Part shown: in pieces, positions 54,233 through 61,715 of the stretch | How positions within the stretch are numbered: position 1 is the first letter of the stretch | Layout: each line of letters opens with the position of its first letter | Origin: Patellaria atrata CBS 101060 | Lineage: Eukaryota; Ascomycota; Dothideomycetes; Patellariales; Patellariaceae | NCBI GenBank assembly: GCA_010093705.1 | Contig: MU006108.1 | Location: 62,001 to 126,000, forward strand | Length of the DNA stretch: 64,000 bases | Direction of reading: 5' to 3' | The notes under the pieces: model-generated | Seen by the model: only the letters and a program-made list of their open reading frames with translations | Told to the model about the DNA's origin: nothing | Databases searched by the model: none | Translations under genes and position numbers: made by a program

Positions 54233-57078
54233 ATGAAAAGGATAAAACTAGCCAGCGCTTGGATGAGCGTCGTCGCGATAGGGATCCTATGGCTGCCAAC
54301 GGTACGGAATAAGATAGTGAATTCGGGAGAGCGTAGTTTGACATATTGCAGGTCCGAGGTCGTTTTCCACAGCGCATCATTCCAGATGATCACGATGCGA
54401 AAGGTATTTTTCATGCGAACCACAATGCGAAAGGAATATTTCACGTCAGGGACGCCAACGGCGAATTGCCCGCTGTAGTTCCTGAAGTAGCTCCTGAGTA
54501 TGCAATCCCATTATACGCCCACGACGTAACCAACGATTCTAACATTCAGAAAAGAGGACCAATGTCCATCGATGCAGTCCAAGTCGAGACCAGTCCCGCG
54601 TTGGGGCCCAGTATGACAACGGATGTTGAGCATATTCCTTCCCCAGAAGTATCTCAGCCCGTGGAAACAACGTCGTGCAGTACCGAAATAGCCGTGATAA
54701 CCCATGAACCATCGATCGTTGTAGAATCCGTCACTCAAGAACTTCCTATGACGTCCCATGTACCACCAACAGAACATGTCGTATCAGTTAACTCGCATCC
54801 CGTGGAATCAACATCGTATAGCAGCGAATCTATCGTGGCAGAAGTACCCATGGAGTCTCATGTACCGCCTCCGGAACATGTCATACCTGTTGAGAGCATC
54901 TCATCTCCCGAACACACTCCCGAAGGCGAAACCACGATGTACCTTTGGCCTGAAATAACTGGCGAGACCGAAGCCCTGTTGCCGATCTATACATCAATCA
55001 TTGAGCACCCTCCCATTGAAGAGCAGTCGATCCCTATTGTCTCTGAACCCATGCAGACTCACCCGATAGCGGTAGTCTCTACAGCACATATAATGCAGCC
55101 TCACGAGACGACAATCGCTGATATTGCAGTATCAACGCATCCGGTTGTAGTAGAAACGGTAGTGCATCCACCACCTCCCCATGAGACTCTAGTTGTAGAG
55201 GTTACCCCGGTAGCCTCATCACCACCTCCACATGAGGTAGCACCTGTCCAGGAAACAATGCCGGTCCATGAGACTATGCCGCCGGTGCATATGACGATGC
55301 CAGTCCAAGAGATCATGCCAGTTCATGAGACGATACTGCCGGTCCAAGAGACAATGCCACCGATTCATGAGACGATGATGCCTCCGGTCCACGAGACGAT
55401 GCCGCCGCCAGAACTCCACGAAACGATGCCACCGCTTCAAGAGACGATGCCACCAGTAGTCCATGAGACGATGCCACCAGTAGTCCATGAGACGATGCCA
55501 CCAGTAGTCCATGAGACGATGCCACCAGTAGTCCANNNNNNNNNNNNNNNNNNNNNNNNNNNNNNNNNNNNNNNNNNNNNNNNNNNNNNNNNNNNNNNNN
55601 NNNNNNNNNNNNNNNNNNNNNNNNNNNNNNNNNNNNNNNNNNNNNNNNNNNNNNNNNNNNNNNNNNNNNNNNNNNNNNNNNNNNNNNNNNNNNNNNNNNN
55701 NNNNNNNNNNNNNNNNNNNNNNNNNNNNNNNNNNNNNNNNNNNNNNNNNNNNNNNNNNNNNNNNNNNNNNGAGACGATGCCACCAGTAGTCCATGAGACG
55801 ATGCCACCAGTAGTCCATGAGACGATGCCACCAGTAGTCCATGAGACGATGCCACCAGTAGTCCATGAGACGATGCCAGTACATGAGACAATCCCAATTG
55901 CGGTTGCTCCTCCTCAAGAGCACACTCCGGAAATGCCTATTCATACCCCTCCCGTACATCCACCGATGCAAACTTTGGTTATTGTTGAATCAGTTCCCGT
56001 CATGGTCCATCCTATCCCTAGCGTAGTGGTTGTTTCTACCCCGATGCATGAAATTCCAATGCAGACTCACGTCACTACAGTCAAAGTACCCGTTGTATCT
56101 CATCCACCTGCTGAAAACGTTCATATTCCGGCAGAGTCACCGGAACCTGAGGTGCCCGTCCAAGGAGTCACCGTAACACATCACACAACGCAAAGAGTAA
56201 CGCAATTAATCACAATCACCGAGACAATGAACGGTCTGGTTTCAGTTTACACTGTAAGTGGATAATTCCTGAAAAGCTTACATCATGTGTTGAATTATAT
56301 TAACGTACTATAGTCCGATCTCGCGATACTTTCCTCTCAGACTTTTGCCCTCCAACCTCCCGTTGAAACTGTTCCGGTTCTTATGTCGATGCCACTGCCT
56401 TCAATTATTGCTCCCTCGCTCATACCTTTACCATCTCCCTCAGTGGAAGCATTCTGCAAATGTCACTGCGTGTGCCCTCCCGGCTCTTTTGACCCAAATT
56501 TAATTCAATATGCACCGCAGCACCCCATGGTGGATGCTCCCTCAGCTTATTTACCTGAAATAAGCTCGAACGTGGTCTCATCAGCGCTTCCAACCCTAAC
56601 CACTCTATTAACGGCTCCGTCCAGCTCCGTGATTGCGGAAGAAATAACGACTTCCATATTCGAACTCACTCTCGACGTTAGCGGGGCAGAATCATCTCCA
56701 ATATCGACCTCTGCTCCCGAGAGCGTAGCGGATGCATCTTTCGCGTTATCAGCACCAGCAACCACCGAATCTCCGCCCAGTGAGACCACGATCGAGCCCA
56801 CGACATCCTCTGAGATCCCTGCAACAACAGAAGTACCTGCGAACACATCAACTGCTCCCCCCTCAACAGTTGCTGAGTCTACCACCGAGGAAGCCCCACC
56901 GGAAGTGACAACGGCGATACCGGATGAAGCTCTACAGCAAGCTTCTTCACTTCTCGCCGCGGCGAGTAGCATCGGCAACGAGCTACCGTTTGACATCAAT
57001 ACATTCCAGTTGCTACCGAGCGTCGCCGTCGGTCTTGGACCCGGAAGATTGAGGAGAAGGGTGATGAGACCAACATGA
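54233..57078 (+). CDS. secreted Pro/Val/Thr-rich protein with ETMPPVVH tandem repeats
   Basis: Three exons (54233-54301, 54352-56253, 56314-57078) give about 911 residues as assembled, including the N run. Exon one encodes a signal peptide (MKRIKLASAWMSVVAIGILW). Then DDHDAKGIFHANHNAKGIFH, a small internal duplication, and a dibasic site in NIQKRGPMS that kexin could cut. The centre is rich in Pro, Val, Glu, Thr and His, becoming a perfect eight-residue array ETMPPVVH. After the second intron comes a Cys cluster (FCKCHCVCPPGSFDP) and a Ser/Thr/Pro-rich region, ending GPGRLRRRVMRPT. No transmembrane segment or GPI signal is visible. Such architecture suits a cell-wall or surface protein, but no domain is recognised and function is unknown. 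The third exon has two possible acceptors, 27 nt apart. Confidence 0.75.
55441..55866. repeat. 24-bp coding minisatellite (ETMPPVVH)
   Basis: Identical 24-bp units: three complete copies plus 23 of 24 bases to the left of the N run, and four complete copies to its right. Copies match at every base including silent positions, so expansion is recent. Imperfect relatives (HETMP, QETMP variants) extend left to about 55246. Confidence 0.95.
55536..55770. other. assembly gap (235 N) inside the coding repeat
   Basis: 235 undetermined bases within the 24-bp array. The true copy number of the repeat is therefore unknown. Confidence 1.
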
Positions 57079-57567: not shown

Positions 57568-58329
57568 CTACGCCTCCTCAAGCCTGCCCATCATATCCCG
57601 CATATCCCTCTTCATCTCGGCCATCCCCTGCCTCACGCCCTCCAAGCGATTCTTCCGCTCCGCGATCTTCTCCCTCATTTTCTCCATCACCCGCTTCTTC
57701 CTCTCGATCCGCCTGTCGAACCGCTCGAAACTCGCTTGTAGCTCCTCCCACTCGTCTTCGAGGACTAAGCGGCGTTTTGGACCTTCCTTCCTCAAACCGT
57801 TCGGCGGCTTCGGCTTCAGTATCGTGGCGGTGGGCGCACTTTTCTTCCTGGAGTTCGCGTTCACGTTTGAGGACTCCTGCATAGGTGGTGAGCTCTCGGT
57901 TTTCCGTTCCCCCGGCACGATGTGGGTGTGAGTGTCTGTTTGGGTGACGTCCTTTTCGGATTTGAGCTCTTCGCCGTCTGATTCTTCGTCGGAGGGCGTG
58001 AGAAGATTTATGATGCAGGGGGGTGGGCGGCGGGGTGGGGAGCCTACTGCAGAAGTGGAAAGGTTATTGGGGGGGTTCTAAGAAAAAGAGTTTGCGTTTG
58101 CGTTTGGGTGTAGGTTTTGGAGGGGTGGTAGGAAGGAAGGGGAGAAAGGGGGCGTACGTCGTTTGATTGGCATGTCCTCTTGTGGGCTGGGTGCGCTGTG
58201 ACGATGCGGTTGGGCGGTCGAGTGACCGGGGACTTTGGATGACTGGGCGTCGCGCTGCCAGATGCGTTTCATTGTTGACGTTTGGTTTTGACCGGAGCGG
58301 AGACGCGCTGTTTGCTTGATTCGTGCCAT
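57568..58329 (-). CDS. coiled-coil protein with a histone H3-tail-like N-terminus
   Basis: Two exons (58329-58158 and 58046-57568, 111-nt intron) give 216 residues. The start, MARIKQTARLRSG, matches the H3 tail (ARTKQTARKSTG) at 8 of 12 positions after Met removal, with Lys4 and Arg8 kept but Thr3 replaced by Ile and Lys9 by Leu. The start codon sits in an excellent context (ACCATGG). The middle is basic and polar, with an acidic patch after LLTPSDEESDGEEL. The C-terminal third is a long charged helix, a likely coiled coil: LVLEDEWEELQASFERFDRR, then VMEKMREKIAERKNRLEGVR, ending MRDMMGRLEEA. The intron join keeps a single frame (KRLGSPPRRPPP). It is not a histone: no histone fold is present. 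Function unknown; an H3-reader partner is the obvious guess. Confidence 0.78.
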
Positions 58330-59791
58330 GGTTACGACGGGTTGGGTATGTTTTGTAGAAAATATAGAGAGATCCGTTCTGTGGATTGAGGTTCACATAA
58401 GGTAGATCTTGTGGTTGGAAGAATGGGGAGGACGTAGGGTTAACCCCCTAGAGAGGGGGGGGAACCCGGGGGGGGGGGGTGCGAGGGCGAGATGAGTCAA
58501 TGTTGCGGTGTCTCGATCACTGAGTAAGTGCTTATCGAACCAAACGGAGATTTCAGCCAGAGGGCCCCGCTGATATGAGAGAGATGGTTTCTGGGAGTGC
58601 GGTATTGAGGAGGTTGGGGTTGAGGGGGGACATGTGGACGTAAGGGGCTATGACTATCGGCTGAGGCACGTGAAGATGTTGGTAGGTGGTACGTATAAAG
58701 GTGCAAGTATATAGGAGATTTGGGGCCTGGTGTGGAGGATCGGTTCGTACGGTGCTGTTTCTGTGATATGGTATCTGTAGATGGTGCGCTTGACTTGTAA
58801 TACCAACGCGTAGTAGTTCCTAAGTTATGTTAAACCGGTATTCAGTCTCACATTCTGCTTCTGAAAACCAACCACGAGGAGATCCGTATTAGTATAAAAC
58901 CTGGATCCATAACTATATTCATAAGGTGAAGATACTTACAATGTCATAGACTACGCCAAAGAATTAGAAGTCTACACTCAGCTGCTAAACTTTCTTACCT
59001 CTTCCGAACACCCAGTGTAAAGTTCCTCCTCCATTCTCCTGACATGTTGATTGGTAAAGGAAAGGAATCCTCCATCAAAGAATTACTAGCTGATTTTAAC
59101 GACCAGATACGGCGATGGTGGGGCAAAAGGAGAATATTCAATCGATACGAGGTCCTTATAACCGCTAAGCTTCTTGAAATTATATAGGTCGTATACGGAA
59201 AACCAGCGTTTGGACTTGTGCTTTAACATCTAAAAGCCGGGAACCCATTTCTTTGTCCTCGACCAAGTATTTATCATGTCTATAGTGATGTGGGTTTGTT
59301 CCACAGTACGAGTAAACTCAACTCATATTCTCCCTAGAGACAACAGTCCGGTAAGCTAGAAGTACAATGACAAGATATCACACACGATGGGGCAAAATAT
59401 AGGTATAATTCTAAAAGCAAAAATTATGAAAATATCCGTACTCATTAACACTTCCAAGGTGAGGCCACGCGAGAAGAGGCTTTTCGAAGCCACTCACCGA
59501 ACAATGAAATCCTCCCCCAATCTCATCTCAATCTCCCAAATCAAGACAATGAAAAATGATGGATTTGTATAATGAACACGATTCTATAACTTACCTCAGA
59601 CTCTTGCACTTTCGATCACCATTCCGTGATTATTACCCACATTCGTTTTGCTCGCTAGGAGCCGTACACTCATTACTGATTACCCTGAGAACCATACGCA
59701 ATCATTGCATTTCAGAGCAATTTCTCTCTTCCAGTCTTGTCTAAAGCAGGCTTCGATTAGAGACCAAGATTCTAGAATATAACTTCTCAAC
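58330..59791. other. intergenic between divergent coiled-coil and tyrosinase genes
   Basis: 1.46 kb with both promoters. Small frames only (for example 59387-59572). Contains the G-rich tract listed separately. Nothing else recognised. Confidence 0.5.
58449..58480 (+). repeat. G-rich tract, possible G-quadruplex
   Basis: On the plus strand, runs of eight and eleven or more Gs are separated by AACCC, about 120 bp upstream of the minus-strand coiled-coil gene. Run length may also be a sequencing soft spot. Confidence 0.6.
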
Positions 59792-61715
59792 ATGTACTTC
59801 GCTCGTACTCTATTCGCTATCGTAACTCTCCTTGTAGTCGCATCTAATTCGATTGCCCTTAAAGGTATTACGGCCGGTGTTTGTATCCAGTCCGGACGAA
59901 GGCCTTTTAGGCAAGATATCGAACAGTTTCAAAAAGAGAGACGGATGTTTACTCTGTACATCCTTGCTTTGCGGGAGTTTAACACGGCAGATGAAAACGA
60001 TCTTCTTTCAGGTACCAGAGTGGCTGGTAAGTTTTGCCACGTTCGATCATTGTTCTTTCTTTCACCTTTTAGCCATGCTGATAACAATGAACATTTAGGA
60101 ATCCACGGCTGGCCATACAAGGTGTATGATAATGTAACAAGTTACGCAGAAAACCCGACGGTTGGGTATGCACTTCATCAGTCCATCCTTTTCGGACCAT
60201 GGCATCAGGCGTATTTGGCTCACTATGAACAAATAATCTTTGAGTATGCCCAGAAGATAGCTTCGAAATATCCTGACGGGAAACGGACAAAGTATATGCT
60301 TGCGGCCAACTTTCTCCGGATCCCTTACTGGGATTGGAGTCGTTCGCCCGAGCTGCCCGAAATCGTTAAGAGAAAGAAAATTGATATTGACATGCCAGAG
60401 GGAAGACGAAGGATTGATAACCCGTTATACACCTTCGAGTTCAAAGGAGCTACTGATTCGGTGAGTGAATCCCCAACACGTAGAAAATATGTTTTAACCT
60501 GCACGATCATTCTTCTGTTCTCTTCAAATAGAGAAAATTTTTGCTCATAACGCGATTTCGCTAATAGTAGCACCACAGTTTCTGGGTTGTAAAGAAATAG
60601 TTCGAGCTTCTGACATCGTGAATGATAGATGTACTACTAGGGATGATTTGGCGAATGCGGCTATGACAAACATAGGAAAAGCTCTGCGAGAAGATACATA
60701 CCGTCTCATCGCTTCCCAGCCCAATTTTGCAGCATTTTCGAACCAGGCGTATAGAGGTCCATTACGAAATAATAACCCGGGGAACATGGAGGAAATTCAC
60801 AACCGGGTCCATGCCTTCGTCGCGGGCCACATGAACTACATCGCCGCTTCATCATTCGATCCCTTATTTTTCTTGCATCACGCCAACGTGGACAGATTTT
60901 ACGAGATCTGGAAGGCCATCTACCCCGACTCGTACGTGATCGATCAACTGCACCAGGATCCGACGTTTACTTACGGGCCGAATACTACCGAGACGATCAA
61001 CACCCCGCTGGCTCCGTTCAAGAGAGACGACAATGGCAACTTTCACACAGCCGCCACAATCCGATCCACGAAGAACGTCGGATACTCTTATCCCGAAATT
61101 CAGGATTGGGGCAACATCACATCTGCTCAGCTATCGCTCAATGTCAAAAAGGAGCTCAACAAAATCCTCAACCCCACGGGTACCACCCACGCGGGAAGTG
61201 GCAATCGTTCGGCTAGGAAGCGTTTAGGAAAGAGAAATGTGCTTGAACCGTATAACGAATATCTTATTAACATCGTAGTTGATAAGAATAGTCTCGGCAC
61301 CTCCTTTTTCAATCGCTTTTTCCTCGGTGAACCACCAGCTAATCCGAAAGATTGGACGACGGCGAAGAACCTCGCTGCTTCTCACGCCGTGCTTGTCCAA
61401 ACTCAGCAGGTCGACGGTGACGTTATTCCTGTAGTCGCTCAATTGTCTCTCACAACAGCACTAGAGGAAGCTAAAGAGGGTGGCAAAATCGAAAACTTAG
61501 ACCTAGAATCCGTAAAGGATTTCCTGGATGAAAACTTAGAATGGCGAGTGCAGAAACTCGACGGGAACACCGTCGACCCCGCAAGCCTCGTAGATCTGCA
61601 CATCACCGTAGGCTATCAAGTAGTAACGCCGAATGATGATCTTGGAAGCTTTAGCGAATATGGCCCTTTTGAGACTCTGAAAATCAACTGGAGTGATGGG
61701 AACTTGGCGAGATGA
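59792..61715 (+). CDS. secreted tyrosinase (polyphenol oxidase)
   Basis: Three exons (59792-60026, 60099-60460, 60534-61715) give 592 residues. Type-3 copper enzyme oxidising phenols to quinones, leading to melanin-like pigments. Signal peptide MYFARTLFAIVTLLVVASNS. CuA ligands: His81 (GIHGWPY), His105 (ALHQS), His114 (FGPWHQAYLAHYEQ), with the usual 24 and 9 spacing. CuB: His288 and His292 (EEIHNRVHAF), His314/315 (LFFLHHANVDRFYEIW). The third exon's acceptor is the second AG of TAGAG; only this keeps frame and yields VRASDIVNDRCTTRDDLANA. A C-terminal domain of ~200 residues follows a basic linker (SARKRLGKRNVLEPYNEY) with a Lys-Arg site. Such domains usually shield the active site until cut. 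All catalytic parts are intact. Confidence 0.94.

Follow-up and report, generated by a model that had tools for sequence, protein, structure and literature searches.

A gene whose product begins like histone H3

The small, otherwise uncharacterised protein M501DRAFT_1019783 (216 aa) of the dothideomycete Patellaria atrata CBS 101060 begins, after its initiator Met, almost exactly as histone H3 does. The locus raises the question of whether this N-terminus works as a docking tail for proteins that read H3, whether it was copied from the H3 gene, or whether it resembles H3 by chance. We examined the gene in its window (the whole stretch of DNA analysed, 64,000 nucleotides), where it is composed as follows:

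58329-57568, minus strand: M501DRAFT_1019783 gene, two exons
58158..58329, minus strand: exon 1, which encodes the H3-like N-terminus and runs through residue 57 to the first base of codon 58; equal to public protein P0001
58047..58157, minus strand: intron of 111 bases, GTACGC...TTCTGCAG, with an in-frame stop if retained; the public protein agrees
57568..58046, minus strand: exon 2, remainder of the protein, ending in TAG, from reading frame and splice
58303..58326, minus strand: codons 2-9, A-R-I-K-Q-T-A-R, identical to H3 residues 1-8 at 7 of 8 positions, from translation and DNA pattern scan
N-terminal tail peptide of M501DRAFT_1019783: ARIKQTARLRSG
58393..58398, minus strand: ATG-TGA, in frame upstream of the start, a minimal uORF if transcribed

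Our own splice of the two exons gave public protein P0001 letter for letter, the intron at 58157-58047 being based on the splice consensus and the public model. On paper, 17 alternative splices also remain open, one of which shifts the acceptor by just three bases to give 215 aa, and the first 20 residues are unchanged in all 17. The start codon lies in the context AACCATGGC, with A at -3 and G at +4. Upstream, the frame is closed by an in-frame stop at codon -22; the single ATG within 300 bases upstream of the start, at 58398, is directly followed by TGA, so the frame does not extend in that direction. After loss of Met, the protein reads ARIKQTAR where the H3 of the same genome reads ARTKQTAR, and G12 is also common to both. 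With 3 of 4 residues of H3 1-4 and 7 of 8 residues of H3 1-8 matched, the N-terminus has the sequence likeness expected of an H3-tail mimic on a non-histone protein. The initial annotation had described such an N-terminus (Thr3 changed to Ile, Gly12 kept), which is confirmed by translation, the public protein and the genome's H3; the intron and the start codon in an ideal context that it predicted are likewise borne out by the splice, the start context and the public model.

Coding scores were computed with a codon table from 15 ORFs picked from the 27 listed in the window, whose own scores were 0.05-0.155. In exon 1, the annotated frame scored 0.094, compared to -0.060 and 0.046 for the other sense frames, and in exon 2 it scored 0.128, compared to -0.401 and 0.110, a small margin; the scores favour the annotated frame, in exon 2 narrowly. 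An ACGCGT box, which we take to be an MBF site, was found 482 bases upstream of the ATG, and H3 and shugoshin each have two within 700 bases; rough arithmetic gives about 0.2 expected, and the box was left out of the evidence. Adjoining the gene, positions 54346-57078 of the plus strand hold reading frames rich in Ser, Thr and Pro, in which an ETMPPVVH tandem repeat is interrupted by a run of N (the whole window has 235 N in total), and reading frames that by eye resemble a tyrosinase-type (copper oxidase) gene lie divergently at 59792-61715 of the plus strand.

Predicted disorder, a C-terminal helix and no recognised family

The remainder of the protein was analysed by single-sequence AlphaFold2 prediction and pattern matching. 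In the model (mean pLDDT 66.9, pTM 0.32), residues 1-146 are predicted to be disordered, with pLDDT block means of 48-67, and are followed by one helix at residues 147-215, for which the block mean is 79 at 151-160 and 94-98 from 161. Two stretches are of interest:

57574..57780, minus strand: residues 147-215, a single predicted helix, from AlphaFold2 and heptad count
57967..58014, minus strand: residues 69-84, IINLLTPSDEESDGEE, resembling a SUMO-interacting motif, with a hydrophobic core and then an acidic run, from pattern match

When the heptad registers of residues 147-215 were counted, the best had hydrophobic residues at 16 of 19 a/d positions, and the other six at no more than 10 of 20; because one register stands out, the helix likely forms a coiled coil. 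Just ahead of residues 69-84, pattern matching also placed a CDK-type site, S60-P-P-R, and basic clusters are present; the names SUMO-interacting motif and CDK site are those that we presume fit these patterns.

No relative of the protein was found. The homologue search with the whole protein (E up to 1) returned 148 candidates, that with residues 1-100 (E up to 10) 14 and that with residues 118-216 (E up to 10) 11, and in each case only M501DRAFT_1019783 itself was retained. These searches depend on shared five-residue words, with a power that is uncalibrated for fast-evolving fungal proteins, and at this sensitivity the protein is an orphan. No paralogue was seen in the genome, where the sole other match is weak (E 0.265) and interrupted by two stops. 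With E allowed up to 10, 13 Pfam families were matched, all under their curated cut-offs and nearly all over the C-terminal helix; the same is true of 8 NCBIfam families, and among PDB sequences 3 were matched with E no higher than 10, the best with an E of 0.21.

Several identities were rejected on these grounds. A histone variant or H3 itself (PF00125) is contradicted by the absence of any histone Pfam family at E up to 10, with filters that drop most weak matches, and by the predicted disorder and single helix. The protein is not shugoshin, as neither Shugoshin_C nor Shugoshin_N was matched in Pfam and the genome's Shugoshin_C match sits on C4, nor Borealin/Nbl1 (PF10444), as Nbl1_Borealin_N was not matched in Pfam and the genome's copy is on C16. 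Orthology to PAF15/PCLAF was rejected too: the H3-like N-terminus is present, and the pattern of the PIP box, which we take to be the defining feature of that protein, has no match. It had been proposed that the protein is not a histone and carries a long charged helix at its C-terminus; the former holds as the absence of a recognised histone domain in Pfam, and the latter agrees with the predicted structure of residues 147-215.

The tail is rare for one genome and within chance across many

To place the tail in its genomic background, a degenerate DNA pattern for ARTKQTAR was scanned over 28,285,586 bases (the 28.3-Mb genome) on both strands. It fits perfectly in one place, the H3 gene, with one mismatch in one place, M501DRAFT_1019783, and with two mismatches in 10. 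Up to three mismatches, 163 places were found compared to 172 for the reversed control; near matches to the H3-tail pattern in general thus show no excess over chance. When the ATG was included, 7 places fell within three mismatches (6 of which keep the ATG), compared to 2 in the control, and H3 ranked first and M501DRAFT_1019783 second. The third-best match to the ATG-containing pattern, at C6:907088-907113 of the minus strand, would read MDRTKETA. Past residue 9, homology to H3 was rejected, as residues 10-83 align with H3 no better than shuffled sequences (445 of 2000 shuffles were as good).

From residue composition, the chance that a protein start matches H3 in at least 7 of 8 residues is 2.3e-8 to 4.5e-8, with the composition taken from the 15 window ORFs and the upper value, 4.5e-8, assuming 15% Ala at position 2. 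Such starts are then expected 1.8e-4 to 3.6e-4 times per 8000 genes (an assumed gene number), i.e., in 2-4 of 10,000 proteomes, or 0.02-0.04 times per million genes for a single motif. The tail match is therefore rare for one genome and within chance across many genomes and motifs.

These figures bear on what we regard as a rival equal to a docking function, and about as likely: that M501DRAFT_1019783 is a real protein, disordered with a coiled coil and either evolving fast or young, in which the agreement of the basic N-terminus with 7 of 8 H3 residues arose by chance and the tail has no reader. That no relative was found, whether with the whole protein or with its two ends, is in keeping with this, as is the number of near matches in DNA, which is no greater than in the control. 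The expectation per million genes applies to this one motif, and a scan spans many genes and many motifs. The GC3 of the gene (57568-58329, minus strand) is 0.71, above the 0.41-0.61 of the 15 window ORFs and higher than that of the genome's H3 (0.59) and main shugoshin exon (0.44), which would be compatible with a gene that is young or unusual. Against chance stand its low expectation within one genome, the position of the match, which coincides with the start codon, and the predicted chromatin-like features, namely the SUMO-interacting-motif-like stretch, the basic disordered region and the coiled coil.

A putative docking tail and its candidate readers

The other leading reading is that the free N-terminus of M501DRAFT_1019783 works as a putative H3-like docking tail, which we hold tentatively, at somewhat less than an even chance. 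Removal of Met would expose Ala1, and Ala1 would fit together with Arg2 into the pocket that an H3-tail reader offers; the disordered middle would serve as a linker, perhaps with a stretch that binds SUMO, and the C-terminal coiled coil would make a dimer or oligomer in which two tails act together, presumably in the nucleus. This proposal starts from the tail sequence, the gene model, the predicted disorder and helix, the shugoshin start and the BIR residues. In its favour are the tail match and its genome rank, the extreme N-terminal position and the good start context; the disorder of residues 1-146, the coiled-coil register, the SUMO-interacting-motif-like stretch, the CDK-type site and the basic clusters; and, in the same genome, a shugoshin that starts A-R-L-N-E and a BIR domain with altered residues.

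The genome of P. atrata has matches for BIR, Haspin, Borealin, Shugoshin_C, SWIRM and PHD. Its H3 gene is at C24:121608, and a CenH3-like gene, named by eye, is at C3:1006275 and starts MPPKAARRS; the Borealin match is on C16 and the best Haspin match on C1. Divergently beside H3 on C24 lies an H4-like frame, also recognised by eye. There are 17 PHD and 4 SWIRM matches, so that sequence alone does not identify the reader.

About half of the weight that we give to docking goes to Bir1, as we call two adjacent BIR matches on C5. Aligned with survivin, the first domain, BIR1, has R62, L64, D65, W67, D71 and H80, and looks like a reader of H3 phosphorylated at Thr3. BIR2 has L62, L64, D65, W67, D71 and R80 in survivin numbering, from an ungapped reading of match range 1-55 to survivin 38-92, so that Lys62 and His80 of survivin are replaced by Leu and Arg. 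Judged by these residues, BIR2 may read A-R tails without a Thr3 phosphate, and Ile or Leu at tail position 3 could pack on its Leu62. The two unlike BIR domains are suggestive of labour divided between phosphorylated H3 and other A-R tails, which would possibly give Ile3 a meaning beyond that of an H3 tail with a broken Haspin site. PMC12420818 ties survivin E65 and H80 to H3 Arg2 and to the backbone beside Ala1, and because of this link Arg80 of BIR2 may weaken binding of the tail and not of the phosphate alone. For the human chromosomal passenger complex (CPC), PMC9253516 reports that SGO1 binding was kept with survivin K62A (42 nM) or H80A (112 nM) compared to 71 nM, and was lost with K62A/E65A/H80A.

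The Shugoshin_C match in P. atrata lies at C4:880280, and the shugoshin there starts MARLNEVPVSTDSIEA, reading A-R-L-N-E after Met (C4:879000-884000, base 2031 of the reverse complement); the ends of its first intron can be placed in several ways, none of which affects the start. On sequence grounds, this A-R-L N-terminus is itself possibly a BIR-docking tail. It shares residues 1-2 only with the tail studied here, which counts against docking, and MAR starts are expected to be common among proteins. Further against docking, homologue searches gave no relative, and so no trace of the tail being under selection, and Ile stands at position 3, a position that matters in the analogous PAF15, where according to PMC7060239 T4D causes loss of binding. 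The proposal that Ile3 makes the tail deaf to Haspin would follow solely from the missing Thr3.

The other half of the weight on docking, and no addition to it, goes to a tail that would dock on a PHD finger, a Lys4 methyltransferase or an LSD1-type enzyme instead of Bir1, a target that we consider unlikely when taken alone. PHD fingers or an LSD1-type enzyme would be the next candidate readers, and the genome's PHD and SWIRM matches supply them, although no particular one is singled out and LSD1 among the SWIRM proteins is a candidate only. Residues Lys4 to Arg8 are kept, which would go beyond what the Ala1-Arg2 pocket of a BIR domain demands, but Lys9 is lost. According to PMC7060239, the PAF15 sequence VRTK is bound by the UHRF1 PHD finger, a precedent for such a target; in the same source T4D kills binding, which speaks against a tail with Ile3, and the effect of K5A is small, which makes the kept Lys4 weak support.

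Origin from the first exon of H3 is improbable

An explanation that concerns origin, and is compatible with function or with none, is that the start region of the H3 gene was copied and joined to another gene; we think this improbable. The first intron of the H3 gene lies inside codon R8 (...ACTGCCC|GTAAGT...AATAG|GCAAG), so that exon 1 spells M-A-R-T-K-Q-T-A and ends one base into R8. M501DRAFT_1019783 resembles H3 without a break up to R8, where H3 exon 1 ends, the change of Thr to Ile needs one base (ACC to ATC), and the K4 and Q5 codons are identical to those of H3. Against capture, all five fourfold-degenerate third positions of the shared residues differ (A1, R2, T6, A7 and R8), M501DRAFT_1019783 has no intron at R8, and residues 10-83 are, as above, no more H3-like than shuffled sequences. 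The 700 bases upstream also lack similarity to those of H3 (224 of 300 shuffles were as good), and a promoter in common with H3 was rejected on this basis; a similarity that ends at residue 8 may equally be coincidence or functional. Least probable of all is the full composite, a fungal CPC regulator made of an H3 tail and a coiled coil, dimeric and Haspin-independent, whose A-R-Ile tail, resembling the A-R-Leu start of shugoshin, would occupy BIR2 with its altered contacts for phospho-Thr3, leave BIR1 for phosphorylated H3 and derive from a captured first exon of H3.

Comparison with known copies of the H3 tail

The SNAG domain is a short N-terminal peptide, found on zinc-finger proteins, that stands in for the H3 tail and docks on LSD1, and it is not known to copy the H3 sequence closely. 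The tail of M501DRAFT_1019783 is likewise a short N-terminal peptide that would stand in for the H3 tail, but Pfam shows no zinc finger in the protein. With H3 of the same genome it has 7 of residues 1-8 and G12 in common, whereas the histone domain is absent.

Neither MARIKQTAR nor ARIKQTAR occurs in the literature searched. The initial annotation knew of no described fungal protein with an H3 tail and a coiled coil, and we likewise found none among the titles and abstract openings of that literature. Its statement that non-histone proteins can copy the H3 N-terminus finds animal precedents in reports on SGO1 (PMC9253516) and PAF15 (PMC7060239). By analogy with SGO1 and survivin, and with PAF15 and the UHRF1 PHD finger, it is plausible that the tail docks on a reader of H3, and to this extent the interpretation in the initial annotation is supported in part; such tails being already known, that of M501DRAFT_1019783 would be a fungal variant.

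PAF15/PCLAF, as described in PMC7060239, is likewise no histone, and it bears a copy of H3 1-4 at its N-terminus: the UHRF1 PHD finger recognises its VRTK as it does ARTK of H3 (Kd 2.2 versus 1.5 µM), binding is abolished by R3A or T4D (T4 being at the position of H3 Thr3), and K5A, at the position of H3 Lys4, has a small effect. M501DRAFT_1019783 differs in having no PIP-box pattern, a long predicted coiled coil, a longer exact match to H3 and Ile at position 3. In human SGO1, the H3-like tail AKER uses the H3 pocket of survivin, and Ala1 is essential, according to PMC9253516. Like SGO1, M501DRAFT_1019783 is a non-histone protein with Ala1 followed by a basic residue and a predicted coiled coil, in a genome with a BIR protein; unlike SGO1, whose AKER matches H3 exactly at Ala1 only, it agrees with H3 in 7 of 8 residues, its coiled coil is C-terminal, and it has no shugoshin domain in Pfam. 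If the docking function is real, copies of the H3 tail on non-histone proteins are in use in fungi as well; P. atrata Bir1 might then devote one BIR domain to phosphorylated H3 and the other to A-R-hydrophobic tails, the shugoshin tail among them, and the exact match to H3 would be longer than the four-residue cores AKER of SGO1 and VRTK of PAF15.
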